Shown in pieces: positions 4,429-62,806 of a stretch of 64,000 nucleotides of DNA. The stretch lies in assembly GCF_027359925.1 (NCBI RefSeq), contig NZ_CP114767.1, positions 558,001 to 622,000 of the forward strand, written 5' to 3'. The notes beneath the pieces were generated by a model. That model made no database searches. It saw only the letters and a list, made by a program, of their open reading frames with translations, and was not told the origin of the DNA. Numbering within the stretch: the stretch's first letter is position 1; every line of letters begins with the position of its first letter. Origin of the DNA: Hymenobacter canadensis. Lineage in GTDB: Bacteria; Bacteroidota; Bacteroidia; Cytophagales; Hymenobacteraceae. The position numbers were made by a program, and so were the translations under genes.

Positions 4429-4557
4429 GAACGTCATTCCGAGCGGAGCGAGGAATCTCGCGTGCTGACATTGGGATTACTATTACAACATCAGCACGCA
4501 GAACGTCCTTTAACTTCAGACCGTCATTCCTCGCGCTGCTCGGAATGACGGTCTGAA
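4429..4557. repeat. intergenic inverted repeat, type B (TCC/GGA)
   Basis: This lies between convergent ctlX and mqo. The left arm has GTCATTCC...GGAATCTCGCGTGCTGA (4437-4468). The right part holds a compact hairpin, CTTCAGACCGTCATTCC / GGAATGACGGTCTGAAG, which probably acts as a terminator for both genes. It belongs to the family described in the findings. Confidence 0.8.
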
Positions 4558-4558
4558 G

Positions 4559-6091
4559 TTACCTGCCAGCCTGCTGCGAGGCGGGCTCTACCAACCCCAG
4601 CACTTTGCTGGTACGGGCCCGCACTTCGGCTACCAGTTCCGGCTTGGTGGCCAACGACTGCCCGAAAGACGGCAGCATGTCGTGAAACTTCTGCTGCCAC
4701 TCCGGCGAGGCCGCCTGCTGCGGAAAGCACTTCTGCACCAGCTGCACCATGATGCTGACGGCCGTGGACGCACCGGGCGAAGCGCCCAGCAGTGCCGCAA
4801 TAGAGCCGTCGGCGCTGGTGACTACCTCGGTGCCGAATTCCAGCACGCCGCCCTGCTTTTCGTCTTTCTTGATAACCTGCACGCGCTGGCCGGCCACGGC
4901 CAGCTCCCAGTCTTCGGGCCGGGCTTCGGGCAGGTACTCGCGCAGAGCCGCCACCCGGTCCTGCGGCGACTGGCGCACCTGCTGGATGAGGTATTTGGTG
5001 AGCGGCAGGTTTTTCAGGCCCGCCATGATCATCGGGCGCAGGTTGCTGAGCTGGATGGAGCCGGGCAGGTCGAGGTAAGAGCCGGTTTTGAGGAACTTGG
5101 TGCTGAAGCCGGCGTAGGGGCCGAACAGCAGCTCCTTGCGGCCGTCAATCATGCGCGAATCGAGGTGGGGCACCGACATGGGCGGCGAGCCCACGCTGGC
5201 TTTGCCGTAGACCTTGGCGTCGTGGCGGGCAATAACGGCGGGGTTGGTGCACTTCAGCCACTGCCCGCTCACCGGGAAGCCCCCGAAGCCATCGGCCTCC
5301 GGAATGCCCGACTTTTCGAGCAGCGGTAACGAGCCACCACCGGCCCCGATGAATACGAACCGGGCCCGCACTTTCAGCGTCTGGCCGGTGGTGCGGTCTT
5401 CGGCCTTCACGCTCCAGGTGCCGTCGTCTTTGCGGCGCAGCTTCTGCACGTCGTGGTGGAAGTGCATGGTCACGCCGGGCTTCTCCTGCAGCAGATAGAA
5501 CATGCCACGCGTGAGCGAGCCGAAGTTGACATCAGTGCCCAGGTCCATGCGGGTGGCGGCTATGGGCTGCTGCGGGTCGCGGCCATCCATCACCAGCGGC
5601 ATCCAGGCGCGCAGCTCGGCGGGGTCGGTGCTGAATTCCATGCCCTCGAACAGGGCCGACTGCGTGAGGGCCGCGTGGCGCTTGCGCAGATATTCCACGT
5701 TTTCCTCATCCCACACAAAGCTGATGTGCGGAATATGGTTGATGAAGCGCTGGATTTCCTTCACGCTGTACTGCTCCGTGAGGTAGGCCCAGAACTGCTT
5801 GCTTTCCTCGAACTGCTCGGCAATCTTGAGGGCCTTGCTGATGTCGATGGTGCCGTCGGGCTTTTCGGGCGTGTAGTTCAGCTCGCAGAACGCCGAGTGG
5901 CCGGTGCCGGCGTTGTTCCAGGCGTCGGAGCTTTCGGCGGCGGCCACGTCGAGGCGCTCCAGGATGGTGATGGTCAGGCTGGGGTCCAGCTCCTTGAGCA
6001 TCAAACCCAGCGTGGCGCTCATGATGCCGGCCCCAATCAGGACGACATCCGTGGTAGTAGTAGTGGTAGGGTCGAAGGCAGGTGTGCTCAT
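4559..6091 (-). CDS. mqo: malate:quinone oxidoreductase
   Basis: The 510-residue FAD enzyme oxidises malate to oxaloacetate at the inner face of the cytoplasmic membrane and passes electrons to quinone. After a short Thr-rich leader, the FAD loop is GAGIMSATLG, followed by ERLDVAAAESSDAWNNAGTGHSA, a hallmark of Mqo. The segment ending GASPGASTAVSIM near the C-terminus closes the flavin site. Length equals the family norm. The ATG at 6091 (MSTPAFD) is preferred over an ATG 39 bases upstream, which adds only RLRRAAVSV-type residues. The gene is convergent with ctlX, the two being separated by a repeat hairpin. Confidence 0.96.
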   Translation of the reverse strand: MSTPAFDPTTTTTTDVVLIGAGIMSATLGLMLKELDPSLTITILERLDVAAAESSDAWNNAGTGHSAFCELNYTPEKPDGTIDISKALKIAEQFEESKQFWAYLTEQYSVKEIQRFINHIPHISFVWDEENVEYLRKRHAALTQSALFEGMEFSTDPAELRAWMPLVMDGRDPQQPIAATRMDLGTDVNFGSLTRGMFYLLQEKPGVTMHFHHDVQKLRRKDDGTWSVKAEDRTTGQTLKVRARFVFIGAGGGSLPLLEKSGIPEADGFGGFPVSGQWLKCTNPAVIARHDAKVYGKASVGSPPMSVPHLDSRMIDGRKELLFGPYAGFSTKFLKTGSYLDLPGSIQLSNLRPMIMAGLKNLPLTKYLIQQVRQSPQDRVAALREYLPEARPEDWELAVAGQRVQVIKKDEKQGGVLEFGTEVVTSADGSIAALLGASPGASTAVSIMVQLVQKCFPQQAASPEWQQKFHDMLPSFGQSLATKPELVAEVRARTSKVLGLVEPASQQAGR

Positions 6092-6202
6092 GGGGAGAGA
6101 GACGGAAACAGCCGCCCGGCGCAGACGCAACAGTGCGCTGCCGCCCGAACGGCCCGGATACGGTACGTGAGGAGGCCGGAAAAAGGTACTGCCGGGTTGG
6201 AG

Positions 6203-6739
6203 TTAGCCGTGCAGGGCGCGCCACTCGTGGTCGAGCATGCTCATCTCAATCAGGCTCCAATATTCGCCCTCGTAGCGCAGAATGTCGCGAGAGAGGCCTT
6301 CCTGCTGCATGCCGGCCTTCTCGTAGCAGCGGATGGCGGCCGTGTTGAAATCGTACACGCCCAGGTCGATGCGGTGCAGGCCCAGGTCTTCGAAGCCGAT
6401 GCGCAGGATGGCCTGCATCATGCCCTGGCAGATGCCGCGCCGCCGCGCCGTGCTGTTGCCCACCAGCACCCGGCTGATGCGGGCGGCGCTGTTTTTGCGG
6501 CTGATGCCGCCCAGCGAAATATGGCCCACCACCTCGCCGGTCTTGGTTTCGATGGCCTTGTACACCAGCGCGTCGGAGGTGGCGGGGTCGTTGGTATCGG
6601 CCAGGTACCAGGCCAGCTTGTCTTCGGTGAGGGGGAAGCTGAACAACGAGCCCGACCAGTTCATGAGCAGCTTAGGATCGGTTATCCAGTCGATGAGCTG
6701 CGGAAAGTCGGCCGGGGTGAAGTATTCGAGTCGGATCAT
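6203..6739 (-). CDS. GNAT family N-acetyltransferase
   Basis: A 178-residue protein with the GNAT core: VVGHISLGGI, then ARISRVLVGNSTARRRGICQGMM, the acetyl-CoA pyrophosphate loop in a RimJ-like form, then LHRIDLGVYDFNTAAIRCYEKAGMQQEG, the classical end of RimJ/RimL-type acetyltransferases. It would acetylate an amino group (protein N-terminus or small molecule) in the cytoplasm. The start at 6739 (MIRLEYFT) is much more plausible than the longer frame, whose first 60 residues are compositionally odd. It lies 111 bp upstream of mqo on the same strand. Confidence 0.88.
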   Translation of the reverse strand: MIRLEYFTPADFPQLIDWITDPKLLMNWSGSLFSFPLTEDKLAWYLADTNDPATSDALVYKAIETKTGEVVGHISLGGISRKNSAARISRVLVGNSTARRRGICQGMMQAILRIGFEDLGLHRIDLGVYDFNTAAIRCYEKAGMQQEGLSRDILRYEGEYWSLIEMSMLDHEWRALHG

Positions 6740-6972
6740 AAAATAAGCAGGGGAAAAAGGGCCGTTTTGCGGGGACGGCAGGGCAGTTGCCACGCCGTCC
6801 CTACGAAGGTAAGGCGGCCAGCGGGCGGATTGTTCGGCCTCTGCCTCCGCAGACAGATTATTATGCAAGGCAGCAGCATAAGCCGGCCTTGAGTCAAAAG
6901 CTATATTATGATAGTGCAATAAAATGATGCGGCTACGTTATTTTGCCAATCTTCCTCCCCCTCATTTTCGAT

Positions 6973-7710
6973 ATGCTCCCGAAATACCTGCCGTTGCTGC
7001 TGGCCCTGCTGACCGGTGCCTGCCATGCTGAGGCGCCGGCGGCCGGGTCGGGGCCCACCGAAACGCGCCCCGACCCGGCGGCAGCGGCCGAATACAAGCC
7101 GCGCGTGACCCGGCTGGCGGCCCGGCGCACGGCCCTGGCGGCGCGCTACCGGCAGGCCCGCACAGCCACGCAGAAAGCGGCCGCGCTGCAACAGGCCCGG
7201 CAACTGCTCGTGGCCAGCCTCGATACGGTTATCTGGCCCGCGTGGTATGGCACGCCCTGGGCGTTCTACGGCACCACCCAGCAGCCCCGGCAAGATTCCA
7301 TTGCCTGCGGCTACTTCGTGACGACCACCCTGCGCGACGCCGGCCTGCGCCTCGACCGGGTGGCGCTGGCTAAAACCACTTCGGAAAAGCTGATCCAGAA
7401 CCTCACCGACGAAGCCCACATCCGGCGCTACCGTCTCGTGCCGCAGGCCCGTTTCGTGCAGCAGGTGCAGCAGCTCGGCGACGGCCTCTACATCGTGGGG
7501 CTGGACTTTCACGTGGGTTTTCTGCGCGTGCGGCAGGGGCAGGTGCGCTTCATCCATTCCACGTACCTGGGCGAAGGGCAGGTGGTGAACGAGGATGCGG
7601 CTACCTCCGCCGCCCTGCGCTCCAAGTACCGCGTAGTGGGCCGCATTTCGGCCGATGCGCGCCTGCTGGAAAGCTGGCTGCGGCAGCGGCGGTTTGTGTT
7701 TGGTGGCTGA
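6973..7710 (+). CDS. lipoprotein, possible papain/NlpC-like cysteine hydrolase
   Basis: A 245-residue protein with a lipoprotein leader (MLPKYLPLLLALLTGAC, lipobox LTGAC), so it is probably anchored in the outer membrane or periplasm. An Ala/Arg-rich helical stretch follows. The region WYGTPWAFYGTTQQP, then DSIACGYFVTTTLRDAG, then FHVGFLRVRQGQVRFIH has the order of a catalytic Cys at the head of a helix followed by a His on a strand, as in NlpC/P60 and CHAP cell-wall hydrolases. I infer that fold only from pattern; no family name is certain. It is convergent with the MscS gene, with 9 bp between stops. Confidence 0.6.
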   Translation: MLPKYLPLLLALLTGACHAEAPAAGSGPTETRPDPAAAAEYKPRVTRLAARRTALAARYRQARTATQKAAALQQARQLLVASLDTVIWPAWYGTPWAFYGTTQQPRQDSIACGYFVTTTLRDAGLRLDRVALAKTTSEKLIQNLTDEAHIRRYRLVPQARFVQQVQQLGDGLYIVGLDFHVGFLRVRQGQVRFIHSTYLGEGQVVNEDAATSAALRSKYRVVGRISADARLLESWLRQRRFVFGG

Positions 7711-7719
7711 AGGCGGCCG

Positions 7720-8823
7720 TTAGTCTTCCACGATGCCGGGCGTGAAGGGCTGGTCGGTGGGTTCGGTGAGGGTGCGGGTTTTGGGCAGGCACTGCGGGTA
7801 GCGCTGCTGAATGAAGGCAATCATCTGCTCCCGCACCGCGCACCGCAGGTCAAACGCCTGGCTGGAATTGGCGGCACTCACCAGGCAGCGCAGCTCGATG
7901 GTACGCTCCTTGGAATCCGTCACCTGCAGCACGCACACGCGCTGGTCCCAGAGCGGATGCGCGGCCACCACGCGCTGCAGCTCGGCACGCACGGCCTCCA
8001 CCGGAATCGTGTAGTCGGTGTACAGAAATACGGTGCCCAGCAGCTGCGAGGCAGTGCGGGTCCAGTTCTGGAAGGGCTTCTCGATGAAATAGTTGAGCGG
8101 CAGCACCAGCCGCCGCTCGTCCCAGATGCGCAGTACCACGTACGTAAACGTAATTTCCTCCACCCGGCCCCACTCGCCTTCCACCACCAGCACGTCGTCG
8201 AGGCGGATGGGCTGGGTGAAGGCAATCTGGAAGCCGGCCAGCAGGTTGCCGATGGAGCGCTGGGCGGCAAATCCCACAATTACGCTGGCAATGCCCGCCG
8301 ACGTGAGCAGGCCCGTCCCGATTTTGCGCACCGTGGCGAAGCTCATCAGAATGAGGGCCACGGCCACGAAGATGATGAGCGACACGGTGAGCTTTTTCAC
8401 GAACTGCAGCTGCGTGAACAGCTTGCGCACCCGCAGGTTGTCGTCATCCGCGAGGCGATAGTGCTGCTGCACCAGGTCCTGAATAACGTCCACGGTTTTC
8501 ACCAAACCCCAGGCGAAGGTGGTGAGCAGCGCCGTTTCCACCAGCCGCCGCGCTACTTCCAGGCTGCGGTCTTGGAGGGAGGTAAGCGGCAGCACAAACG
8601 AGACCACCAGCACCGGGAAAAACCACGCGCTGGGCTGGCGCAGGTGGCGTAGCACCGAGCTGGCCAGCAGCGTAGCCGGCTCGCGCCGGACGTAGGCGGC
8701 CAGCGCCCCGAATACCACCACTTTCAGCAGCCACCCTGCCAGCACGCTGCCGGCCACAATGGCCAGCGTGCGCAGCAGGGTTTCTACTTGGTCGGGCAGC
8801 AGGTCGGGAAGTTGGAAGGGCAT
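7720..8823 (-). CDS. MscS-family mechanosensitive channel
   Basis: A 367-residue inner-membrane protein with four predicted transmembrane segments in its first 200 residues and the MscS pore helix and beta domain: TGLLTSAGIASVIVGFAAQRSIGNLLAGFQIAFTQP, followed by IRLDDVLVVEGEWGRVEEITFTYVVLRIWDERRLVLPLNYF. These channels open under membrane tension and release solutes during osmotic downshock. Two ATG starts are possible (8823 and 8871); neither has a clear Shine-Dalgarno. I chose the shorter because the extra 16 residues are not family-like. Confidence 0.92.
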   Translation of the reverse strand: MPFQLPDLLPDQVETLLRTLAIVAGSVLAGWLLKVVVFGALAAYVRREPATLLASSVLRHLRQPSAWFFPVLVVSFVLPLTSLQDRSLEVARRLVETALLTTFAWGLVKTVDVIQDLVQQHYRLADDDNLRVRKLFTQLQFVKKLTVSLIIFVAVALILMSFATVRKIGTGLLTSAGIASVIVGFAAQRSIGNLLAGFQIAFTQPIRLDDVLVVEGEWGRVEEITFTYVVLRIWDERRLVLPLNYFIEKPFQNWTRTASQLLGTVFLYTDYTIPVEAVRAELQRVVAAHPLWDQRVCVLQVTDSKERTIELRCLVSAANSSQAFDLRCAVREQMIAFIQQRYPQCLPKTRTLTEPTDQPFTPGIVED

Positions 8824-9030
8824 GGGAAGGAGGGCAAGTAGCCGCCGCAAACCGACGGGCAGTGCTGCCATGTACCCGCGGCATCAGCCAAAGGTTGTAG
8901 TCCGGGCAGGCTTCAGGGGCTGGCAGCAGCCGGCTCAGACTGAGCAGTTGCCCCCGAAAATTTCGCTTATTAGCATGTAATTCAACCAAACGATCGGCAG
9001 GAGCAAAAAAAATTAGTCTATTATTACTAT

Positions 9031-9459
9031 ATGCATCGGATTGTATACCTCAGCTCCGCAACAGGCGAATTGGACGAGCATCAGCTAAAGGAGCTGTTGC
9101 TGCACTCGCGGCGCAAAAACCAAGCGCGCGCCATCACCGGTCTGCTGCTGGTGAGCGAAGGCGAGATTCTGCAGGTGCTGGAAGGCGAGCAGTCTGCCGT
9201 GGAGCAGCTCTACGACATCATTGCCCAGGACATTCGCCACACCCACCTCTACAAGCTGGCCGACGGCCCCATTCCTGAGCGGGCTTTCCCCGACTGGTCC
9301 ATGGGCTTTGCCACGGCCGCGCCTGATACGTTCGTGCAGCTGGCCGGCTACCGCAACCTCGATAACACTGGTTTTTTAGCGGTCCGCCCGCAGAGCATGG
9401 ACCGTCCTTTCTTTGAAGTACTGCGCGAGTTTGCCGCTGTGCATACCGCCAACGCCTGA
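9031..9459 (+). CDS. BLUF-domain blue-light sensor (copy 2)
   Basis: A second 142-residue stand-alone BLUF protein, the same length as the copy at 1425 and with identical numbering of the key residues: Tyr6, Asn30, Gln48, Trp89, with RH at 69-70. One difference in the pocket is AITG instead of GITG (Ala34 for Gly34). The C-terminal cap differs more than the core, which suggests different partners. It is followed after 6 bp by a methyltransferase gene with a GTG start, so the two are likely co-transcribed and coupled. An A+T-rich stretch (9005-9030) directly precedes the ATG. Confidence 0.92.
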   Translation: MHRIVYLSSATGELDEHQLKELLLHSRRKNQARAITGLLLVSEGEILQVLEGEQSAVEQLYDIIAQDIRHTHLYKLADGPIPERAFPDWSMGFATAAPDTFVQLAGYRNLDNTGFLAVRPQSMDRPFFEVLREFAAVHTANA

Positions 9460-9465
9460 CCGCCC

Positions 9466-10269: not shown

Positions 10270-10303
10270 GCTCTCATTCCGACCGTAGGTAGGAATGAGA
10301 GCC
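10269..10303 (+). terminator. hairpin after the methyltransferase
   Basis: GGCTCTCATTCC pairs perfectly with GGAATGAGAGCC across an 11-base loop directly at the stop codon. No T tract follows, so termination may be weak. Confidence 0.55.
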
Positions 10304-10329
10304 CGGGCTAACAGTGTATTTGGGGAAGA

Positions 10330-10434
10330 CCGTCATGCTGAACTTGTCGAAGCATCTCTACCGCTTTGTTGTGTTGGCATTGATTAGCCAGAGGTAGAGA
10401 TGCTTCGGCAAGCTCAGCATGACGGGCAACGAGG
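10330..10434. repeat. intergenic inverted repeat, type A (GCT/AGC)
   Basis: The left arm is CGTCATGCTGAACTTGTCGA then AGCATCTCTACC; the right arm is GGTAGAGATGCTTCGGCA then AGCTCAGCATGACGG. It lies between convergent methyltransferase and pncA. Confidence 0.85.
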
Positions 10435-10442
10435 TGCAAGCG

Positions 10443-10482
10443 GCGCTTGTAGCGCGAACTACAAAGTTCGCGCTACAAGCGC
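10443..10482. repeat. 18-bp perfect hairpin, GCGCGAAC type (type E)
   Basis: GCGCTTGTAGCGCGAACT (10443-10460) and its exact complement (10465-10482) enclose ACAA. The right arm touches the last base of the pncA stop codon, so it can terminate pncA or its convergent neighbour. It is related to hairpins at 11100-11300 and 16190. Confidence 0.75.
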
Positions 10483-11449: not shown

Positions 11450-11531
11450 GGCAACGTTCCCGATAACGATTGCGCAAAAAATAGGGGAGGTAGGTGCTGC
11501 CGGGCCCAACTATTCCAGTAACCTTATTGAC
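11450..11531 (+). promoter_or_regulatory. shared operator/promoter module, copy 1
   Basis: GGCAACGTTCCCGATAACGA at 11450-11469 continues with TTGCGC, and TAACCTTATTGAC lies at 11519-11531. Both blocks recur before kduD with the same 68-bp spacing. The first resembles a LacI-family operator (an imperfect palindrome of CAACGTT and AACGATTG halves). The second could be a -7 region. The ATG of the fusion esterase is about 90 bp downstream. Confidence 0.6.
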
Positions 11532-13971: not shown

Positions 13972-14228
13972 AGAACGTCATTCCGAGCCTGCGAGGAATC
14001 TCGCGTGCTGACGTTGCCAAACTAATCGTCATGCTTCATCTGGCGTCCGCTTGCCGAAGCATTTCTACCGCTCCACCTTAACGATTCACTAGCCCAGGGT
14101 TTAAACCCTGGGCTACGGAGCGGCTGCCATTCCAAACATCAGCACGCGAGATTCCTCGCAGGCTCGGAATGACGTTCTGGCGAAGCCGTAGAGATGCTTC
14201 GGCAAGCGGACGCCAGATGAAGCATGAC
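13972..14228. repeat. composite repeat: interleaved type B and type A arms around a central palindrome
   Basis: Order of parts: B arm (13974-14013), A arm (14028-14071), the palindrome AGCCCAGGGTTTAAACCCTGGGCT (24 bp, 14091-14114; written here in full only as halves AGCCCAGGGTTT and AAACCCTGGGCT), the complementary B arm (14137-14177) and the complementary A arm (14188-14228). B pairs with B and A with A, so the two stems interleave and cannot form together as a simple nested fold. Both A arms carry the same extra 15 bases in the loop (TCATCTGGCGTCCGC and its complement). Confidence 0.8.
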
Positions 14229-22637: not shown

Positions 22638-22656
22638 ATTTTAGTGAGTAGGAAAT

Positions 22657-22716
22657 GGGGCTTAGGGCTTGGGTCGTTTCAGCGGCAAAGCAACAACAAC
22701 CTAAGCCCTAAGCCCC
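22657..22716. repeat. TAGGGCTT-type hairpin between susC and susD (type H)
   Basis: GGGGCTTAGGGCTT at 22657-22670 pairs with AAGCCCTAAGCCCC at 22703-22716 across a loop of about 30 bases. There is no T tract. The unit also occurs at 57336-57457 and 63915. Confidence 0.7.
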
Positions 22717-22753
22717 AGGCCCTGATCACCAAACCCTACCTACTGAAATCCCC

Positions 22754-28626: not shown

Positions 28627-28764
28627 ACCGTCATGCTGAGCATGTGGCGAATTGAGCCAGGGTGCGCAGCCGCAGTCGAAGCATCTCTACCGCTTCGTCT
28701 GCACGACTGCGTTAGCCAGAAGTAGAGATGCTTCGACTCCGCTCTGCTTCGCTCAGCATGACGC
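28627..28764. repeat. intergenic inverted repeat, type A with enlarged loop
   Basis: The left arm is GACCGTCATGCTGAG...GTCGAAGCATCTCTACCGCTTCG; the right arm is AGTAGAGATGCTTCGACTCC...CTCAGCATGACG. The left loop contains about 25 extra bases absent from other copies. Confidence 0.8.
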
Positions 28765-30483: not shown

Positions 30484-30662
30484 ACGTCATGCAGAGGTAA
30501 CAAGAACGTCTTGCAGAGGCGCAGCCGAAGCATCTCGCCAGAAGCTAATGTCATGCAAATAAGACCGTCATGCTGAGCTTGCCGAAGCATCTCTCCCGCT
30601 TCGCTTCAATGCTGATCAAACGAAGCGGTAGAGATGCTTCGGCAGGCTCAGCATGACGGTCG
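30484..30662. repeat. tandem type A repeats, degenerate then intact
   Basis: Decayed arms CGTCATGCAGAGG (30485) and GAAGCATCTCGCC (30529) come before an intact pair: GACCGTCATGCTGAGCTT (30566) then GAAGCATCTC, and GTAGAGATGCTTCGGC then AGCATGACGGTC (ending 30662). It lies between uxaA and uxaC. Confidence 0.8.
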
Positions 30663-32268: not shown

Positions 32269-32414
32269 AACGTCATGCAGATGCGCAGCCGAAGCATCTC
32301 TAACATCTCGCCTGAACGTCATTCCGAGCTTGCGAGGAATCTCGCGTGGTGAGGTTGCCATGGTAATCCTACGTCAGCACGCGAGATTCCTCGCAAGCTC
32401 GGAATGACGTTCTA
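32269..32414. repeat. type A fragment followed by intact type B repeat
   Basis: ACGTCATGCAGATGCGCAGC then GAAGCATCTC is a lone type A arm at 32269-32302. An intact B pair follows: GTCATTCCGAGCTTGCGA then GGAATCTCGCGTGGTGA (32319-32353), and its complement CAGCACGCGAGATTCC through GGAATGACGTTCT (32377-32413). Confidence 0.8.
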
Positions 32415-33460: not shown

Positions 33461-33565
33461 CGTCATGCTGAGCGAAGCGGAGCGTAGTCGAAGCATCTCT
33501 ACCGCTTCGTTGCAATGCCATTGATTAGTCAGAAGTAGAGATGCTTCGACGAGCTCAGCATGACA
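33461..33565. repeat. intergenic inverted repeat, type A
   Basis: The left arm is GACCGTCATGCTGAGCGAAG then GTCGAAGCATCTCTACC; the right arm is AGTAGAGATGCTTCGACGAG then CTCAGCATGAC. The right arm ends 27 bp before the kdgA ATG. Confidence 0.85.
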
Positions 33566-33591: not shown

Positions 33592-34236
33592 ATGCCCCGT
33601 TTTTCCGCTGCTCATATCCTCGAAACTGTGCTGGCCACGCCCATCGTGCCGGTGTTTTACCACGCCGATGCAGCGTACGCCCAGCGTATCGTGCAGGCCT
33701 GCTACGAGGGTGGGCTGCGCGTGTTTGAGTTCACCAACCGCGGGTCGCAGGCGTTTGAGGTGTTCGGGCAGCTGATGGCCTTCGTGCAGCAGAACTGCCC
33801 GGAAATGCTGCTCGGCATCGGCACGATTTACACCGCCGCTGACGCCGATCGATTCATTGCCGCCGGTGCCGACTTCGTGGTGCAGCCCTGCATTACGGCG
33901 GAGGTGGCGGAAGTGTGCCGCCAGCATGGCACGCCCTGGCTACCCGGCACCATGACCGTGCGCGAGGTGTACGAAGCCACGCAGCTGGGCGCGGCCATTG
34001 TGAAGGTGTTCCCCGGCAACGTGGTCGGGCCGGGCTTTATCAAGAGTTTGCGCGGCCCCATGCCAAGCGTGCCGCTGATGGTAACCGGCGGCGTGGAGCC
34101 CACCCGCGAGAGTCTGCGCGAGTGGTTTGGGGCCGGCGTAAATGTGGTGGGTATGGGCTCCCAGCTGTTCAAAAACGACGACCCCGCCGCCCTGAAAACC
34201 CTGCTCCGCGACCTGCTGGACTCTTTGTCATCCTGA
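33592..34236 (+). CDS. kdgA: KDPG (2-keto-3-deoxy-6-phosphogluconate) aldolase
   Basis: A 214-residue TIM-barrel aldolase that splits KDPG into pyruvate and glyceraldehyde-3-phosphate. The catalytic Glu46 is in RVFEFTNRG and the Schiff-base Lys138 in AAIVKVFPGN; GIGTIYTAADADRFIAAGADFVVQP lies between them. The ATG at 33592 is preferred because the upstream in-frame codons are repeat sequence. The final codons TCA TCC TGA are supplied by the type C repeat that begins inside the gene end, so the stop codon itself belongs to the repeat. Confidence 0.94.
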   Translation: MPRFSAAHILETVLATPIVPVFYHADAAYAQRIVQACYEGGLRVFEFTNRGSQAFEVFGQLMAFVQQNCPEMLLGIGTIYTAADADRFIAAGADFVVQPCITAEVAEVCRQHGTPWLPGTMTVREVYEATQLGAAIVKVFPGNVVGPGFIKSLRGPMPSVPLMVTGGVEPTRESLREWFGAGVNVVGMGSQLFKNDDPAALKTLLRDLLDSLSS

Positions 34237-34354
34237 GCTTGCGAAGGATCTTATTACGCTTAAACGACTAACGCTAGAACCGTTCTGCGAACCTCTGCGG
34301 AAGCCGCCTCAAAAACTGCAAGCCTGATAAGGTCCTTCGCAAGCTTAGGATGAT
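34226..34354. repeat. intergenic inverted repeat, type C (CCT/AGG), overlapping the kdgA stop
   Basis: The left arm is TTGTCATCCTGAGCTTGCGA then AGGATCTTATTACGC; the right arm is ATAAGGTCCTTCGCAAGCTT then AGGATGATAA. The TGA in the left arm is the stop codon of kdgA. Confidence 0.85.
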
Positions 34355-52243: not shown

Positions 52244-52245
52244 CC

Positions 52246-53436
52246 GTGGCCGGCTCCACGCTCACGCAAGCCGCCACGGCTGCCGCCGCAGCCCGGTCGC
52301 CGGGCTACTACGTGCGCCAGCGGCTGCTCGGCAACCGCCCGGCCATGGCCGGGCTGGGCTTTATCGTGCTTTGTGCCCTTATTGCGGTGCTGGGCTACTG
52401 GGTGCTGCCCGACAACTCGCCCAACGCCAACAACAGCCTCGTGCAACTGCAGAAAGAACCGCCCGGCTTCCGGGCCACGGTGCTGCGCCTGCCCATCCGG
52501 GACTCCATCCGCACGGCTTCCGACAACATTTTCCGGACCTGGGCTTCGGGCCGGGCCCCGCGCTACCAGGAGGTGCCCATCGGCGGCTACCGTTTCCAGG
52601 GCGACTCCATGTTCATCGAGCCCTACCAAAACCACTCAGCCCTGGCTGACAAGGCCCGCCGCTATTCGTTGGCCGAAGTGGCGGGGCAACCCGGCACCCG
52701 CGCCGAGCTGCAGCAGCTGGTGGCGCAGGAACGCATCGGGCCGCGCACCTACTGGCTGGGTACCGACAAATCGGGCCGTGACGAGCTGAGCCGGCTGCTG
52801 CTGGGTACCCGCGTCAGCCTCGGGATTGGGCTGGTAGCGGTGCTGATTTCGGTGGTGCTGGGCATGGCCGTGGGCGCCGTAGCTGGCTACGTGGGCGGCT
52901 GGCTGGACTCGCTGCTGCTGGGCGTGATGACCGTGGTGTGGAGCATTCCGGGCATCATGCTGGTCATCGCCATTTCGCTGGCCCTCGACAGCAAGGGCGT
53001 CTGGACCTCGTTTGTGGCCGTGGGCCTGACTATGTGGGTGGACGTGGCCCGCGTGGTACGCGGCCAGATGCTGAGTTTGCGCGAAAAAACTTTTGTAGAA
53101 GCCGGCCGTGTGCTGGGCTTGCCGCAAAGCCGCCTTATCATCCGGCACCTGCTGCCCAACATGACCGGGCCGCTGATTGTCATTGCAACCAGTAATTTCG
53201 CGGCAGCCATTCTGCTCGAAGCCGGCCTTAGCTTCCTGGGGCTGGGCGTGCAGCCGCCGGCCCCGTCGTGGGGCCTGATGGTGAACGAAGGCTTCCAACT
53301 CTTGGGCACCGAAGCTGGCCTCTGGCTGACGTTGCTGCCGGGCTTAGCCATCAGCCTGCTGGTGCTCAGCTTCAATCTGCTCGGCAACGGCCTGCGCGAC
53401 GCCTACGACCCCAAAACCCCTCTGGGGAGTAGTTGA
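52246..53436 (+). CDS. ABC transporter permease, DppC/OppC type
   Basis: A 396-residue inner-membrane permease. After the first transmembrane segment (about 37-55) there is a long periplasmic insertion of some 120 residues, then TYWLGTDKSGRDELSRLLLGTRVSLGIG, the DppC signature, five more transmembrane segments and the EAA loop (EAGRVLGLPQSRLIIRHLLPNMTGPL). It imports peptides or nickel-type ligands with partners DppABDF, none of which is in the window. GTG at 52246 follows the upstream stop by 2 bp; longer frames overlap that gene. Confidence 0.9.
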   Translation: MAGSTLTQAATAAAAARSPGYYVRQRLLGNRPAMAGLGFIVLCALIAVLGYWVLPDNSPNANNSLVQLQKEPPGFRATVLRLPIRDSIRTASDNIFRTWASGRAPRYQEVPIGGYRFQGDSMFIEPYQNHSALADKARRYSLAEVAGQPGTRAELQQLVAQERIGPRTYWLGTDKSGRDELSRLLLGTRVSLGIGLVAVLISVVLGMAVGAVAGYVGGWLDSLLLGVMTVVWSIPGIMLVIAISLALDSKGVWTSFVAVGLTMWVDVARVVRGQMLSLREKTFVEAGRVLGLPQSRLIIRHLLPNMTGPLIVIATSNFAAAILLEAGLSFLGLGVQPPAPSWGLMVNEGFQLLGTEAGLWLTLLPGLAISLLVLSFNLLGNGLRDAYDPKTPLGSS

Positions 53437-53565
53437 GCAGAGTAACTGAGTAGTGGAGTAGCTGAGTAAACCGTTCTGCCAGAGAATCTTTATTCAGTTA
53501 CTCTACTACTCAGTTACTCTGCTCAACTACTCTCTACTCAGTTACTCCATTACTCAGCTACTCTG
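53426..53565. repeat. GAGTAACT-type arrays (type G)
   Basis: GAGTA-based 8-9-mers on the plus strand (53428-53472) end with AACCGTTCTGCCAGAG. Complementary TTACTC/CTACTC units fill 53495-53561. The left array begins inside the last codons of the permease and the right array ends directly at the ATG of the phosphatase, so the repeat fills the whole gap. Confidence 0.75.
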
Positions 53566-54801: not shown

Positions 54802-54813
54802 AGAAATAGCCCG

Positions 54814-54896
54814 TCATGCAGAGCGGAGCGAAGCATCTCGCCAGTGTGGTAGAATTACTACACTGGCGAGATGCTTCGCTCCGCTCTGTATGACGG
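54814..54896. repeat. compact type A hairpin
   Basis: CCGTCATGCAGAGCGGAGCG then AAGCATCTCGCCAGTGT pairs almost fully with the ACACTGGCGAGATGCTTCGC side ending GTATGACGG. The copy is short (loop of about 15 bases) and lies between the convergent phosphatase and methyltransferase genes. Confidence 0.85.
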
Positions 54897-55739: not shown

Positions 55740-55868
55740 TGTCAGTCGCAAAAGAAAGGAAATAGTTTCAGGCCTTGCCGGCCCGGCGAAGGTACATGCT
55801 AAACGACAACTGCCGCTATACTCAGGCCCGGCATGTACAGAATAAGGGCGTAGGAGTCGGCCAGGCTG

Positions 55869-57335: not shown

Positions 57336-57457
57336 TTAGGGCTTAGGGAATAGGGCTTGGGGCTTAGGAAATAGGGAATAGGGCTTGGTGATTGGAGGTT
57401 AAGCTGATGAATAACCTAAGCCCTAGGCCCTATTCCCTAAGTCCTAATCCCTAACAA
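57336..57457. repeat. TAGGGCTT-type arrays (type H)
   Basis: Units of TAGGGCTTAGGGAATAGGGC type fill 57337-57385; CCTAAGCCCTAGGCCCTATT and CCCTAAGTCCTAATCCCTAA fill 57416-57453. The two sides are largely complementary across about 30 bases. Confidence 0.8.
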
Positions 57458-58525
57458 CTAATTCTTAATCGACAGGTTGCCGCGGTAGAGCTCCAGCAGG
57501 GTGATGAAGATGACGGAGAAGGCAAACGTCACGAGCACCGACGACAGCACGATAAACCAGCGTACCGGCGCGGCTTTGCGGGTGGCGGGGTAGGCTTCCT
57601 GCACCACGTAGATGCTGGAAATCTTGCCGCTTATACTCACGCTGGCCGATTCGTAGTCGCCGCGGGCCTTGATGAGGCGGGTCTGGATGTCGTTGAAGCG
57701 GGCGTAGAGCGTATTCATCTGGTCGTTGCCGGCCGTGTAGCTTTCCAGGTTGAAGATGTTGCCGCCGTCGGCGCGGGTGAGGGCCCGCAGGGCGCGGCGC
57801 AGGCCGGCGGCCTTGTTGCTGTTGCCTTCGCCTTCGGCGCGGCGCAGCGCGTTTTCGGTTTCGATGATTTCCTTGGCCAGGTACCTCGCCTCCATGGTCA
57901 GGCCATACACGCCGTAGCGGCGGCGGCCGGCCAGCAGGCTGTCGTAGGTGCTCCGGTATTCGCGCTCCAGGAAGCTGCGGCGCTGAACATACAAATCCAG
58001 AATCTTGCGGCGGTTGGCAAACGTCAACTGCTGGTTGACGGAGTCGATGCTCTGCACCATGGCATTCACGATGCGGGCGGCCAGCACCTTATCCGTATCC
58101 AGAAAGGTCAGCTCGATGGCGTCCCGGTCGTTGTGAACGATGTTGAGGTTGCTGCTGAATTCGTTGAGCGCGGCATTGTCGGCAATGTCGTCGCCGGCCT
58201 GGCCCACGCCGTAGTGCTCGTGCAGCTTGAAGCGGCGGATGATGCCCTCGGCCACCGGCTGCGACTGCCCGATGGTGATAACCCGGTCCAGGTCTTCGTT
58301 GCGGCCACCCAGCTCCAGCTTGCCGCCTTCCGTCACAATCCGGTCGGGGTCAGTGGTGTTGGGGTTAGTGGGGTAGAAGACCGAGGTAGACTTATATATG
58401 TTGGGCAGCAGCAGGGCCACCACCGCACTGACCACGAATGCCAGCGCCACGGCGCCGAGCACCAGATACTTCCAACGATTGATAACCGGCCACAGGCCCA
58501 GCAGCGAATAAGAGCGGGATGACAT
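57458..58525 (-). CDS. Wzz-like polysaccharide chain-length regulator
   Basis: A 355-residue inner-membrane protein of the Wzz/G-rich family: one N-terminal membrane helix (YLVLGAVALAFVVSAVVALLLPNIYKSTSVFYP, about 19-51), a long periplasmic helical region (FANRRKILDLYVQRRSFLEREYRSTYDSLL) and a second helix near the end (WFIVLSSVLVTFAFSVIFITLLELY). It sets glycan chain length together with the polymerase encoded downstream. The ATG at 58525 (MSSRSYSLLGLWP) was chosen; a longer frame adds 18 residues. Confidence 0.87.
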   Translation of the reverse strand: MSSRSYSLLGLWPVINRWKYLVLGAVALAFVVSAVVALLLPNIYKSTSVFYPTNPNTTDPDRIVTEGGKLELGGRNEDLDRVITIGQSQPVAEGIIRRFKLHEHYGVGQAGDDIADNAALNEFSSNLNIVHNDRDAIELTFLDTDKVLAARIVNAMVQSIDSVNQQLTFANRRKILDLYVQRRSFLEREYRSTYDSLLAGRRRYGVYGLTMEARYLAKEIIETENALRRAEGEGNSNKAAGLRRALRALTRADGGNIFNLESYTAGNDQMNTLYARFNDIQTRLIKARGDYESASVSISGKISSIYVVQEAYPATRKAAPVRWFIVLSSVLVTFAFSVIFITLLELYRGNLSIKN

Positions 58526-58965
58526 AGAGGGACGAAAAGACAAGCTACTGTGGTATTGCCGGCCTTCCGGCCCCACCACAACGCAGCAAAGCTAGTGTAA
58601 TCGGGCAAGAATCAAGAACAGATATCTGCTGGTGATAACTGGCATTGCGAGCAGCACGAAGCAATCTGTCCTCTCGGTCAGACCGGTTTTAGCGCAGTTT
58701 CGGATTGAGTGTACAGCGTGTAAAGACGCGACCCTTGGCGTCTTGGCGTTGAACGGCCGGCATCCCGCAGCCTGCACAACGTCAGCAACGACGAAACGCG
58801 AAGTTCCGCGTCTCTACCAGCGCCCGTGGGCTGTATACTGACCCCAAACCGCTTTTAATAAGCCGAAAGCCCGCCGGCGTTGGATTACTGCTTCCCTGCC
58901 GGAGGGTTGGTCTGTAAGGGAAGTGTCTGCCAAGAGAGAGGAAGGATTGCTTCGCGCTGCTCGCA
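58526..58965. other. 440-bp intergenic region with type D and type F repeats
   Basis: No gene is seen. A type D arm, GGCATTGCGAGCAGCACGAA then GCAATCTGTCC, lies at 58642-58672. Its complement, GGATTGCTTCGCGCTGCTCG then CAATGAC, lies at 58944-58970. Between them a type F pair is visible: GTGTAAAGACGCG at 58719 and CGCGTCTCTAC at 58808. The D complement runs into the first codons of the next frame. Confidence 0.7.
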
Positions 58966-60468
58966 ATGACAACAACTGATGGCGCAAGCGGAGGCCTATG
59001 GTGCATTCCTTGTAATTTCGCGGCCCATCCTTTATTCCCGGCCTGTATCAAACGCTTTTTCGGAAATATCAGCTTCGTGGTGCTGCTCAACCTGCTGGTG
59101 AAGCCTGGCTGGGTGATGGTCGAAAACCTGGTGCAGGACCGGCTGGGGCACGCGGCCTTCGGCACGTTCACGGCTTTGTTCACGCTGGCTACCATTGCGG
59201 CGCAGGTTTCCGACCTGGGTACCACTCAGCTTACCACCAAGCGGGTGGCGGCCAACCCGGACTTCCTCACCGAGTATTTCCCGACGCTGCTGCCCCTGAA
59301 AGGCTGGTTGTCGGGGCTGTTTTTGCTGGTTACGCTGGGCATCGGCTGGCTGCTGGGCTACCGCGGCCACACGCTCACGCTGCTGGGCCTCACGGCGGGC
59401 GGGCTGCTGCTGGCCCAGTTTACGATGTTCCTGCGGGGCGTGCTGCAGGCCCACCAGCGCTTCAATACCGACGCGCTGCTGTCGGTGCTGGAAAAGTTTC
59501 TGCTGCTGGGGCTGGTGCTGCTGCTGGTGCCCATCGGTATTTCCCTGGACCGCTACGTGGGGGCCCGCACGCTGGCCGTGGGCTTCACGTTTGTGGTGCT
59601 CTACGGCATTATTGCGCGGCTCTACGGGCGGGTGCGGTTCCGGCTGCAGGTGGGCCAGGCCCGCACGGTGCTGCGGGCCAGCCTGCCGCTGGCCTTCATC
59701 ACGCTGGTGTATGGCCTGAATGAGCGGATTGACATGCTGATGCTGGAGCGGCTGGTGTCGGCGCAGGAGGCCAGCTACTACGCCGCTTCCTACCGCTGGC
59801 TGGACACCATGATGATGTACCTCTGGACGGTGCTGCCGCTGTTCTTCGTCAAGTTCGCCCACGCCACCGGCCGGCCCCAGGAGCAGAAGGATCTGCTGTG
59901 GTTTGGGCAGCGCGTCGTGACGGTGCCCATGCTGCTGATCTGCGGCTTCGTGCTATTTCGGGGCGAAATCCTGTTCTGGCAATTCACGCACAGCACGCCG
60001 CTGGAAGTGGCCCGTATGGCGCTCTGCCTCAAGATTCTATTCGTGAGTGTGCTGGTGCACGCCTTCTTCGCCATCTACAGCACCCTGCTCACCAGCACCA
60101 ACCACGAGCGGCCGGTGAGCTGGCTGGTGGGCTTGAGCATCGTCCTGAACGTGGGCCTGAACCTGCTACTGCTGCCGCGCCTGGGGGCGGTGGCCGGGGC
60201 CATCAATACGTTGGTGTGCGCCGTGTTTGTGTCGGTGGGCTATTTGTGGCTGGTGCATCGGCGCACGGGCGTGCCGGTGCCGTGGGCGTGGCTGGCCCGG
60301 CTGGCGCTGGCCTTCGGGCTGCTCTGCGCCGTGTGGGCGGGCCTGCAGGCCGGGCTGGGCCTGCACTGGCTACCTGAGTCGGTGCTGGCCGGCACAGCCT
60401 TCGTGGCCATCCTGTTCCTGACCCGTATCGTGCGCGTAGCGGAGCTGCGGCAGTTGCTGGGGAAGTGA
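58966..60468 (+). CDS. polysaccharide flippase (Wzx/MATE-like)
   Basis: A protein of up to 500 residues with about 12-14 transmembrane segments. NISFVVLLNLLVKPGWVMVENLVQDRLGHAAFGTFTALF, then LNERIDMLMLERLVSAQEASYYAASYRWLDTMMMY, fits the lipid-linked oligosaccharide flippase family. It moves glycan-lipids across the inner membrane for the polymerase. The only in-frame ATG (58966) lies inside a type D repeat and gives 27 odd residues; a -7-like TAATTTCG at 59013-59020 suggests that transcription may begin after it. The true start is therefore uncertain, perhaps near the IKRFFGNISF codons around 59046. Confidence 0.85.
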   Translation: MTTTDGASGGLWCIPCNFAAHPLFPACIKRFFGNISFVVLLNLLVKPGWVMVENLVQDRLGHAAFGTFTALFTLATIAAQVSDLGTTQLTTKRVAANPDFLTEYFPTLLPLKGWLSGLFLLVTLGIGWLLGYRGHTLTLLGLTAGGLLLAQFTMFLRGVLQAHQRFNTDALLSVLEKFLLLGLVLLLVPIGISLDRYVGARTLAVGFTFVVLYGIIARLYGRVRFRLQVGQARTVLRASLPLAFITLVYGLNERIDMLMLERLVSAQEASYYAASYRWLDTMMMYLWTVLPLFFVKFAHATGRPQEQKDLLWFGQRVVTVPMLLICGFVLFRGEILFWQFTHSTPLEVARMALCLKILFVSVLVHAFFAIYSTLLTSTNHERPVSWLVGLSIVLNVGLNLLLLPRLGAVAGAINTLVCAVFVSVGYLWLVHRRTGVPVPWAWLARLALAFGLLCAVWAGLQAGLGLHWLPESVLAGTAFVAILFLTRIVRVAELRQLLGK

Positions 60469-60662
60469 TGGGGTGATGAGGTGAGTGGTTGATGTGCTGA
60501 TGTGTGAGGTACTGTCATCCTGAGCAGAGAGAAGGACCTTATCACGCCTGAACGGCAAGCGGTATAACGACTCGTTCTTATCCCACAAGATCCTTCGCTC
60601 TGCTCAGGATGACAGCTACCTTTGTCACCTCATCACCCCACCAACCCACTAAATCATCAACC
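60463..60662. repeat. type C repeat nested inside GGTGATGA-type arrays (type V)
   Basis: Outer arms: GATGGGGTGATGAGGTGAGT (60468-60487) and the CACCTCATCACCCCACCAAC side (60626-60645). Inner arms of type C: CTGTCATCCTGAGCAGAG (60512) then AAGGACC, and AGATCCTTCGC then TGCTCAGGATGACAG (ending 60615). One inverted repeat is thus placed inside another. Confidence 0.8.
60617..60624 (+). promoter_or_regulatory. putative -7 element TACCTTTG at the repeat border
   Basis: TACCTTTG fits the TAnnTTTG consensus and sits 1 bp after the type C arm. The glycosyltransferase TTG start is 46 bp downstream. The same octamer occurs at 62769 in an equivalent place. Confidence 0.5.
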
Positions 60663-60669
60663 CACCACC

Positions 60670-61800
60670 TTGCACATCGCCGTAAACACCCGCTTTCTGT
60701 TGCCCGGCGGCCAGCTGGAGGGTATTGGGCGCTTCACGTTCGAGACGCTGAAGCAGCTGGTGGCGGCGCACCCCGAGCACACGTTTCACCTGCTCTTCGA
60801 CCGCGCTTTTGATGCGCGCTACCTGACGGGCCCCAACGTGGTGCCGCATGTGCTGCTGCCGTCGGCGCGGCATCCGTTTTTGTGGGTGGCGTGGTTTGAG
60901 GGGGCCGTGGCGCTGTGGCTGCGGCGGCACCGGCCGGCCGTATTCCTCAGCCCCGACGGCTATACCACCCTGGCCACCCGCGTGCCCCGCGTCACGGTGT
61001 TTCACGATCTGGCCTTCGAGCATTTTCCCGAGCACATGAGCGGGCTGGAGCACCGGTATTACCAGTTTTTCGCGCCGCGCTTTGCCCGGGCTTCGGCGCA
61101 GCTGGTAGCAGTGTCGGAGGCGACGCGGCAGGACCTGGTGCGCACGTATGGCATCGAGCCCGGCAAAATCCGGGTGGCTGGCAACGCGGCCGATGCGCAC
61201 TTCCAACCCCAGCCACTGGCCGTGCAGACCGCTACGCGGGAGCGGTACGCGGCCGGCAAACCGTATTTCCTGTTTGTGGGCGCCCTGCACCCGCGCAAAA
61301 ACCTGACAAATCTGCTGCGGGCCTTCGACGCGTTCAAGCAGCGCACCGGCGCCACCACCAAGCTGCTCATCGTGGGCCGCACGGCCTGGAAAGCCGGCCC
61401 CATGTTCGATGTGTACCAGCAGCTGCAGTTCCGCCACGACGTGCACCTGACCGGCCGCGTAACGGAAGAAGAGCTGGTACAGCTCTACGCCGCCGCCTAC
61501 GCCACCGTCTATGTGCCACTGCTCGAAGGCTTTGGCATTCCCATCATCGAGGCCCAGGCCTGCGCCTCCCCGGTCCTGACCTCCGACTGCAGCTCCATGC
61601 CCGAAGTGGCCGGCGGCGCGGCCCTGCTCGCCGATCCGCAGGATGCTGGCGCCATCACCGACGCGCTGGTACGCCTGCATCAGGAACCCGCGCTACGTGC
61701 CTCGCTGATAGAAATGGGCCTGCAAAACGTGCAGCGCTATTCCTGGCAGCACAGCGCTGAAGTGCTGTGGGAGGCGGTGCTGGCGGCCGTGAAGAAGTGA
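60670..61800 (+). CDS. glycosyltransferase family 1/4 (GT-B)
   Basis: With TTG at 60670 the protein is 376 residues and opens directly with the first strand of the fold (HIAVNTRFLLPGGQLEGIGRFTFETLKQL). The donor-site half has YFLFVGALHPRKNLTNLLRAFDAF, DVHLTGRVTEEELVQLYAAAYATVYVPLLEGFGIPIIEAQACASPVLTS, the EGFGxPxxE signature of retaining GT4 enzymes. It adds a sugar to the surface polysaccharide in the cytoplasm. The longer ATG frame (60622) encodes Pro/His-rich repeat sequence and is not believed. Confidence 0.9.
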   Translation: MHIAVNTRFLLPGGQLEGIGRFTFETLKQLVAAHPEHTFHLLFDRAFDARYLTGPNVVPHVLLPSARHPFLWVAWFEGAVALWLRRHRPAVFLSPDGYTTLATRVPRVTVFHDLAFEHFPEHMSGLEHRYYQFFAPRFARASAQLVAVSEATRQDLVRTYGIEPGKIRVAGNAADAHFQPQPLAVQTATRERYAAGKPYFLFVGALHPRKNLTNLLRAFDAFKQRTGATTKLLIVGRTAWKAGPMFDVYQQLQFRHDVHLTGRVTEEELVQLYAAAYATVYVPLLEGFGIPIIEAQACASPVLTSDCSSMPEVAGGAALLADPQDAGAITDALVRLHQEPALRASLIEMGLQNVQRYSWQHSAEVLWEAVLAAVKK

Positions 61801-61810
61801 GGAATGAACC

Positions 61811-61943
61811 GTGTAGAGACGCGTATTCGCGTCTCGTCGTTGAACGACGGGGGCTGTGTCGCCTAAGCACCGTAAGCACCGGTCGGGGCTGTGCCGGCCA
61901 AACAACGTCAGCAACGATGAGACGCGAATACGCGTCTCTACAC
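61811..61943. repeat. TAGAGACGCG-type inverted repeat (type F)
   Basis: The 32-base arms 61811-61842 and 61912-61943 are complementary with one mismatch that would be a G:U pair in RNA (arms begin GTGTAGAGACGCGTATTCGC). A related, decayed copy is at 58719-58820. Confidence 0.85.
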
Positions 61944-61984
61944 CGCCCCCAAGCCTACAACGTCACCGTTTCCAATTGAAAACC

Positions 61985-62623
61985 ATGCGTGTCCACCGCC
62001 TCCCCGAAATCATGCAACGCTGGCTGCCGCACACCGAGTGGCGCGGGCCGATGCGGGCGGGGGAGAAGCCGCTCTACCTTACCTTCGACGACGGCCCCGT
62101 GCCCGAGGAAACGCCCTTTGTGCTGGAGCAGCTGGCCCGGCACAACGCCCGCGCCACGTTCTTCTGCGTCGGCGACAACCTGGAAAAGCACCCGGACATT
62201 GCCCGGCAGGTGCTGGCCGCCGGCCACCGGCTCGCCAACCACACATTCCACCACGTGAGTGGCTGGCGCACGCCCTTGCCGCTGTATCTGGCGGAAGTGG
62301 CCCGCTGCCAGCAGGCGCTGGATGCGCTGCTGCCGCAGCCCGAGGCCCGGCCGCTGCTGCGCCCGCCCTACGGCCGCCTCACCCGCGCCCAGGCCACCGC
62401 GCTGCACCCCAGCCACCGCCTCATCATGTGGGATGTGCTCACCTACGACTACGACGCCACCTATCCGCCCGAAACCTGCCTGCGCGCTGCCCTGGCCCAC
62501 ACCCGCCCCGGCGCCATCGTCGTGTTTCACGACAGCCACAAGGCCCGCCAGAACCTGCGCGCCGTGCTGCCCCGCTACCTGGCGGCCTGTGTTGAACAAG
62601 GGTATTCGTTTGAGTTGTTGTAG
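61985..62623 (+). CDS. polysaccharide deacetylase (NodB domain)
   Basis: A 212-residue CE4-type deacetylase. Motif 1 is TFDDGP (33-38), with Asp36 as metal ligand; the metal His pair is in NHTFHH (His86, His90); motif 3 is RPPYGRLTRAQ; the LIMWDVLTYDYD and IVVFHDSHKA segments are motifs 4 and 5. It removes N- or O-acetyl groups from a glycan. No signal peptide is evident, so it may act at the cytoplasmic side or on lipid-linked intermediates. The ATG at 61985 was chosen because upstream codons are type F repeat. Confidence 0.9.
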   Translation: MRVHRLPEIMQRWLPHTEWRGPMRAGEKPLYLTFDDGPVPEETPFVLEQLARHNARATFFCVGDNLEKHPDIARQVLAAGHRLANHTFHHVSGWRTPLPLYLAEVARCQQALDALLPQPEARPLLRPPYGRLTRAQATALHPSHRLIMWDVLTYDYDATYPPETCLRAALAHTRPGAIVVFHDSHKARQNLRAVLPRYLAACVEQGYSFELL

Positions 62624-62643
62624 GAAAGAGGTAGGGTAGATTA

Positions 62644-62806
62644 AGACTGTCATCCTGAGCTTGCGAAGGACCTTGTCACGTCTGAACAGGTCGTGGTGAC
62701 GAAGTTTGCGCGGAGGTTTGCGGAGTCGTTCCAGCGTGATAGGATCCTTCGCAAGCTCAGGATGACAGTACCTTTGTCACCTCATCACCCCATCACCTCA
62801 ACACCA
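62644..62806. repeat. type C repeat followed by a type V arm
   Basis: CTGTCATCCTGAGCTTGCGA then AGGACCTTGTCACG (62647-62680) pairs with AGGATCCTTCGCAAGCTC then AGGATGACAG (62740-62768). The next 22 bases (ACCTTTGTCACCTCATCACC then CC) are identical to those after the type C repeat at 60512. Confidence 0.8.
62769..62776 (+). promoter_or_regulatory. putative -7 element TACCTTTG at the repeat border
   Basis: The same octamer and context as at 60617; the TTG start proposed for the next glycosyltransferase lies 34 bp downstream. Confidence 0.5.

Follow-up and report, generated by a model that had tools for sequence, protein, structure and literature searches.

Introduction

Repetitive extragenic palindromic (REP) sequences carrying a CGTC tag have been described in bacteria (Di Nocera, De Gregorio and Rocco 2013, PMC3733652); according to that paper, no dedicated enzyme was known for them in 2013 and the way in which they spread was left open. 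The present work concerns intergenic repeats found in a 64,000-nucleotide stretch of the 5.09 Mb genome of Hymenobacter canadensis (G000:C1:558001-622000, referred to as the window), and small GIY-YIG nuclease genes that stand between copies of the same repeats elsewhere in this genome and in the genus. The repeats consist of arms with the plan GTCAT-xyz-GAG...GA-z'y'x'-AT-CT, in which the triplet xyz and its partner form part of a stem and define the type of the arm. As in PMC3733652, the arms have an unpaired CGTC/TGTC tag, AT/AT as the first stem pairs, subsets with complementary stems, head-to-head dimers, a mostly intergenic position and no adjoining transposase. They appear to differ from the repeats described there in build (five stem pairs, a GA/AG step, two further pairs, a loop of three bases in the commonest form and a tail of CTC, CTT or CTG, against a stem of 8-9 bp, a loop of 4-5 bases and a CCA tail), and they differ in having a GIY-YIG gene as partner and in range, since to judge by record titles they occur in phyla other than the five named in that paper. 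Judged by sequence, the Hymenobacter repeats fit the class of CGTC-tagged REPs.

A second comparison is with REP doublets forming hairpins (REPINs) and the REP-associated tyrosine transposase (RAYT) that moves them, a Y1, IS200-like enzyme. Paired inverted hairpins, many copies and an enzyme gene flanked by its own repeats are common to both; the enzyme is a GIY-YIG nuclease here and a Y1 transposase there, and the tag is GTCAT (CGTC/TGTC) instead of GTAG or GTGG.

Ssn proteins, GIY-YIG single-strand nucleases, and their NTS repeats have reportedly been described in Neisseria by Chenal et al. in Nature Communications in 2025. That system is reported to join a small GIY-YIG nuclease with an intact core to a cognate repeat present in hundreds of copies, which also flanks the nuclease gene, and each of these features recurs in Hymenobacter. 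Unlike Ssn/NTS, a Hymenobacter genome has more than one such pair in parallel, and the stem triplet distinguishes them. By analogy, they are best read as cognate nuclease/hairpin pairs of the Ssn/NTS kind. The link between GIY-YIG proteins and repeats made here may already be in print in the Ssn work; what seems additional is the GNA loop, together with the presence in one genome of several parallel pairs that differ in a covarying stem triplet. A text search of the literature gave no match joining GIY-YIG with 'repetitive extragenic palindromic', and none joining Hymenobacter with the same phrase. Papers containing arm sequences as text strings seemed, from the titles among the matches listed, to deal with primers or gene sequences.

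The repeats are probably CGTC-tagged REP hairpins, mostly arranged as head-to-head dimers, and fall into several families side by side, every family having its own cognate small GIY-YIG nuclease. The evidence for this reading, the points that weigh against it and the alternatives are given below.

Repeat arms and their fold

A first-pass annotation of this DNA had listed 12 sites. Pattern scans of the window found 19 arms in which xyz is complementary to its partner at every position, and these lie at 11 of the 12. The twelfth site (54814) holds a GCA/AGC arm with an A.A mismatch at z, and arms are present at all 12. The four stem types named in that annotation (GCT/AGC, TCC/GGA, CCT/AGG and TGC/GCA) all occur, but GCA/AGC, a common type, had been overlooked and must be added as a fifth. 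A more tolerant scan of the window gave 22 matches, including two overlapping readings at 30550/30567, and in it some CCT-type arms finished in GGAC instead of AT. A genome-wide search with the pattern GTCATNNNGAN{2,20}GANNNATCT, in which AT is fixed on both sides but pairing is not required, matched 242 times on the forward and 246 times on the reverse strand (488 in all), and its reversed control 0 + 0 times. The tag before the stem is CGTC or TGTC, C or T preceding GTC in nearly all printed arms, with GGC in one.

Dimer orientation was scored over 945 kb of two genomes. Head-to-head pairings numbered 46 (some arms being shared), head-to-tail pairings five and tail-to-tail pairings none, and the dimer spacers had a few preferred lengths. 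The two arms of same-type dimers were identical in 12 of 34 cases (within-type shuffles: mean 6.0, maximum 13); this excess over the shuffle expectation is suggestive only.

Stem covariation was measured on 227 arms, collected from parts of eleven Hymenobacter genomes without requiring pairing, and compared with 1000 shuffles of the partners. Position x paired in 214 of the 227 (shuffle mean 124, maximum 142), y in 221 (mean 201, maximum 207) and z in 173 (mean 110, maximum 125); 51 of the 54 failures at z were A.A. All three pairs formed in 161 arms, in 7 distinct fully paired states. A scan of a collection with one genome per species gave at least 118 loci, with titles printed for 80, of which 61 were non-Hymenobacter. 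Among the matches listed, these 61 loci carried 69 arms, 57 of them fully paired, 11 with one mismatch and one with three. Compensated states recur in unrelated lineages, and therefore the fold of the single arm is supported as a selected one, both within the genus and across phyla.

The first-pass annotation had proposed a self-folding, selected arm of REP-like nature, and the data bear this out: xyz and its partner covary far beyond the shuffles and do not change independently, and the dimers are head-to-head. Its view of the types as independent needs correction. Within Hymenobacter they are not unrelated elements, since stems and 3' tails occur in different combinations: the tail CTCGCGTGCTGA was found on GCT, GCA and TCC stems alike, and CTCTACCGC on GCT stems as well.

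A constant GA/GA separates the stem from the loop and is followed in the commonest form by GC-NNN-GC; loops are three bases or longer. Of the Hymenobacter arms built in this way, 66 of 76 had GNA as NNN; so did, among the matches listed, 126 of 152 such arms from all collection loci and 55 of 69 such non-Hymenobacter arms, where random letters would give 1 in 16. The complementary TNC loop occurred 2, 0 and 0 times in the same three sets. On the tag strand of the Hymenobacter arms, G.T-type mismatches outnumbered A.C-type ones by 12 to 4, both small numbers. The GA/GA step and the GNA loop point to the GTCAT strand as the one that folds. DNA minihairpins with a GNA loop on two G-C pairs are extraordinarily stable, GCGAAGC melting at 78 C, according to PMC4686876, and GCGAAGC is mentioned together with hairpin and REP in Nunvar 2010. 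Longer loops (33462-33496 and 28728-28762 in the window; loops of 18-20 bases across the genus) look modular, with GC-GNA units flanking an apical GNA hairpin.

Small GIY-YIG genes between the arms

Open reading frames near the arms of the 118 collection loci were clustered, and among the matches listed a small GIY-YIG protein appeared, once between two inverted arms. A family search of the Hymenobacter canadensis genome found three small GIY-YIG genes, all outside the window, and all three were flanked on both sides, each by arms of a single stem type (Table 1). Their proteins match PF01541 at E values of 2.2e-17 to 1.7e-16; as read, the nucleases are about 93-119 amino acids long. Two other GIY-YIG matches in this genome lie in frames of 625 and 530 amino acids, and no arm is near the 530-residue one.

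The 70 best-ranked Hymenobacter loci outside this genome were then taken as a sample, 67 of which could be parsed. Under a strict pattern, arms stood on both sides of the gene in 41 of the 67, on one side in 17 and on neither in 9, and all 9 of the latter had a half-motif, GTCAT-CCT-GA or GTCAT-TGC-GA, beside the gene. Among the three unparsed loci, L342 had arms on both sides and L350 and L351 had none. Random 300-bp positions in two genomes had arms on both sides in 0.23% and 0.08% of cases. Stem types matched on the two sides in 36 of the 41 two-sided loci. The nearest arm lay at a median of 22 bases after the stop codon (n=53; within 40 bases in 41) and of 32 bases before the start codon (n=46; within 40 bases in 29).

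In other phyla, the family search gave 32 loci outside the UvrC type, with arms on both sides in 10, on one side in 4 and on neither in 18; none of seven UvrC-type loci was flanked by arms. Nine armless proteins from these phyla were parsed, and six of them lack the N-x-x-W motif that flanked proteins have at the C terminus. Among relatives in the same order, TGC arms stood on both sides in 2 of 11 small GIY-YIG loci examined.

The GIY-YIG core is fully conserved: Y4, Y15, G17, R25, H29, E64, K65 and N83 are present in 71 of 71 proteins whose genes have an arm on one or both sides. The relatives found by sequence in the PDB were two UPF0213 proteins (E 2e-4 and 3e-3), with SLX1 at E 0.15, and 120 listed homologues bear the name 'GIY-YIG nuclease family protein', 'putative endonuclease' or 'hypothetical protein', or none; among those listed, the nearest named ones belong to Hymenobacter.

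Five other clusters of reading frames near arms, which by eye resemble a receptor or sensor protein, a response regulator, a short-chain dehydrogenase, an ABC protein and a DnaJ protein, were taken for common neighbours.

Nuclease clades and stem types

A tree was built from 70 Hymenobacter proteins, the 67 parsed ones and the three of Hymenobacter canadensis. Nine stem-type labels, with 'none' counted as one, required 19 changes on this tree (14 for the arm-bearing rows only), against a mean of 37.0 for shuffled labels, none of 200 shuffles being as low; many forks of the tree are unresolved and near-copies inflate the test. A cross-phylum tree required 17 changes against 31.0 for shuffled labels. 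Stem type agrees largely with nuclease clade. TGC rows gather, as do GCC rows (with one GTC), most GCT rows gather with GTT, and CCT rows gather with eight armless rows, all of which show CCT half-motifs.

In the TGC-class proteins (e.g. L330, L338 and L360), [GA]G replaces x-W before S/T-R (7 of 7, against 0 of 64 others). This position is a candidate specificity residue, although the class is confounded with descent.

Distribution and turnover

All 120 Hymenobacter genomes scanned, the present one included, had matches to the repeat pattern (median 235, range 2 to 1022). Twenty-two genomes elsewhere in the order had 0 to 5 matches each, with 19 in one. A Hymenobacter plasmid holds a 94-base stretch that includes the repeat.

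By record title, the 61 non-Hymenobacter loci among the matches listed come from at least 15 phyla, mostly as metagenome bins. Omnitrophota, Patescibacteria, Chloroflexota, Acidobacteriota, Planctomycetota, Cyanobacteria and Clostridia are among the groups represented, and Legionella, Helicobacter and Silvibacterium among the isolates. With a looser pattern, 20 non-Hymenobacter genomes gave 14 to 638 matches each (reversed control 0 to 5); these counts are upper bounds, many matches in G146 and G144 being visibly not arms, beyond what the reversed control would estimate.

Site content was compared with G119, a Hymenobacter genome 87% identical to the present one over the aligned part. Of 45 arm clusters in Hymenobacter canadensis, 42 could be placed in G119, where 13 share the type, 7 have only another type and 22 are absent. 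Conversely, 24 of 32 G119 clusters could be placed in Hymenobacter canadensis (13 sharing the type, 7 with only another type, 4 with none). No exact insertion footprint could be read in the orthologous gaps of G119 and G101, the gaps inspected being too diverged at 87% identity.

Discussion

The GTCAT strand is proposed to fold into an AT-xyz stem, a tandem GA/AG mismatch and a GC/GC clamp, often closed by a GNA triloop. The nuclease would recognise its own arm chiefly by the stem triplet, and would cut or nick it while single-stranded, during replication, repair or DNA uptake. Repair of the cuts from other copies could spread arms and convert the type at a site, and the same process would maintain copies of the target on either side of the nuclease gene. 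Sequence comparison establishes the arms, their covariation, the GNA bias, the flanking, the match of clade to type and the turnover between species, whereas recognition, cutting, single-strand specificity and spread by repair are inferred. A type-matched nuclease gene between arms makes the question of an enzyme for CGTC repeats directly testable, and the flanked nucleases are pointers to the enzyme that these widespread bacterial repeats have so far lacked. The covarying trinucleotides would be the specificity letters and, if cutting is confirmed, the pairs would provide small enzymes, ready for use, that cut single strands at differing targets.

Several findings weigh against such cognate pairs. 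In other phyla, the 18 armless loci of 32 include L270, L275 and L287, whose proteins have N-x-x-W or nearly so, and L382, which is of the same GIY-YIG subfamily but comes from a different family of the order, has copies of an unrelated palindrome, TCCCGGATAGTATCCGGGA, on both sides. Two arm-rich genomes, G131 (822 arms) and G026 (338 arms), gave no small GIY-YIG match, only frames of at least 504 amino acids, and the family search found no resident cognate nuclease for the CCT and TGC types in Hymenobacter canadensis; both cases fit repeats that outlive their enzyme, and equally weaken the case that the enzyme is needed. The match of type to clade has its exceptions: L375 lies among CCT-clade proteins yet has GCT arms; L347 (GCA) is placed in the GCT clade; L288, the GCT protein of Hymenobacter canadensis, stands with L363 outside the main GCT clade, next to GCA and GCC rows where the tree leaves the branching order unsettled; L373 (GTC) falls among GCC; and GTT is not set apart from GCT. 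Calculated folding energies show no preference for DNA over RNA, and some arms give another fold. Arm counts correlate with the number of GIY-YIG matches (Spearman 0.40) and with that of Y1 matches (0.28), both uncorrected for kinship. Finally, GIY-YIG nucleases alone are not known to transpose DNA.

A wider form of the proposal can be offered only tentatively, and we regard it as rather doubtful: CGTC repeats across the bacterial domain would be the non-autonomous part of a homing-like system, in which nucleases read a triplet code, cut single-stranded DNA and spread their own type by repair, parallel lineages competing for the same intergenic sites.

By analogy with the role reported for Ssn and NTS in Neisseria, a host function is a serious possibility, if somewhat short of an even chance. 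The repeats would mark the genome and the nuclease would trim incoming or replicating single strands (uptake control), spread being a by-product of recombination. The nuclease gene adjoining its own repeat, the hairpin with its DNA-stable loop and the many copies in unrelated phyla (the upper bounds given above) all suit a host tool, whereas the rapid turnover between species with switching of type, the several parallel types per genome and the arm-rich genomes without the enzyme look more selfish.

It is improbable that the arms act instead as RNA, as 3'-end hairpins that terminate transcription or protect messenger RNA, with the nuclease genes incidental. Such a role would agree with the placement of the repeats. 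With home-made gene calls on stretches of two genomes, divergent genes bordered 2 of 71 repeat-bearing gaps and 81 of 444 other gaps (Fisher p 0.0004), and 6 of 77 arm clusters lay outside any gap of 60 bases or more. The earlier placement of the sites downstream of genes or between convergent genes is correct in that divergent gaps are avoided, but the enrichment in convergent gaps was not significant (p 0.31). The tag strand also folds as RNA, seven model arms giving -3.7 to -7.0 kcal/mol by nearest-neighbour folding. RNA is not known to share the stability bonus of the GNA minihairpin. An RNA role leaves the GNA loop, the flanking and the match of stem type to nuclease clade unexplained.

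Movement by a RAYT, as proposed in the first-pass annotation, has been largely refuted and is now very unlikely. The head-to-head dimers with their few preferred spacer lengths, the four Y1 genes of the genome and the weak correlation of arm counts with Y1 matches would agree with it. Against this, arms stood on both sides of the Y1 gene at none of 47 Hymenobacter loci, those of the present genome included (within 750 bases of the domain), and on one side at 1 of 47. Inverted repeats of different sequence, read by eye, spanned 17 of 19 scanned Y1 loci, and therefore such a test can reveal a pairing of repeat and transposase. At E 0.1, no Y1 match was found in 29 of the 120 Hymenobacter genomes, among them G096 with 725 arms, and PMC3733652 likewise places no transposase at CGTC repeats. 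The Y1 proteins L001, L002, L026 and L032, which have the motif Y---Q--HH, stand between inverted repeats; in PMC6006769 this motif is that of subclass 1.2, tabulated there without REPs.

That nuclease genes merely land in the repeats as insertion hot spots, to which the many sites of differing content between species might point, is hardly credible given the closeness of the arms to stop and start codons, the matched types on the two sides, the broad agreement of type with clade and the lack of two-sided flanking at the seven UvrC-type and 47 Y1 loci.

Repeat copies in the window

The arms and dimers of the window are collected in Table 1 together with the three small GIY-YIG genes.

Table 1. 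Repeat arms of the window, in window positions, and small GIY-YIG genes of the same genome, in positions of contig C1.
Feature	Type	Position	Strand	Remarks
Small GIY-YIG gene	GCA arms	C1:1655134		
Small GIY-YIG gene (L288)	GCT arms	C1:1855065		
Small GIY-YIG gene	TCC arms	C1:3804392		
Arm	TCC/GGA	4433..4456	+	Right arm 4526-4549 (-), same type, without CTC tail, GACGG next; pattern scans
Head-to-head dimer	GCT/AGC	10332-10355, 10400-10423	+, -	TCC type at the equivalent place in G119
Head-to-head dimer	TCC/GGA	13977-13999, 14151-14173	+, -	Further palindromes within and overlapping
Head-to-head dimer	GCT/AGC	28630..28762		Long loops, 42 and 22 bases between paired triplets
Head-to-head dimer	GCT/AGC	30567..30657		Preceded by GCA-type fragments (from 30486)
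Single arm	GCA/AGC, z = A.A	32272..32297	+	Hybrid dimer in G119 and G101, GCA-type left, TCC-type right
Head-to-head dimer	TCC/GGA	32318..32408		Pattern scans
Head-to-head dimer	GCT/AGC	33462..33564		Loops unequal
Dimer	CCT/AGG	34227..34354 (end approximate)		Right arm degenerate; absent here in G119 and G101
Dimer	GCA/AGC, fifth type, z = A.A	54813..54894 (end approximate)		
Dimer	TGC/GCA	58641..58970		Left tag GGCAT; arms ~280 bases apart
Dimer	CCT/AGG	60514..60613		Left arm ends GGAC
Dimer	CCT/AGG	62649..62766		Left arm ends GGAC; GCA dimer at the equivalent place in G119

Other palindromes were seen in the window at 10437-10476, ~14090-14120 and 61811-61943 (GTAGCGCGAACT.., TAGCCCAGGG..CCCTGGGCTA and GTGTAGAGACGCG..), and these resemble the repeats that span Y1 transposase genes in Hymenobacter. 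More inverted or degenerate repeats lie at 57336-57468, 22640-22733 and 53427-53532 (GGGCTTAGGG-like; GAGTAGTTGAG).

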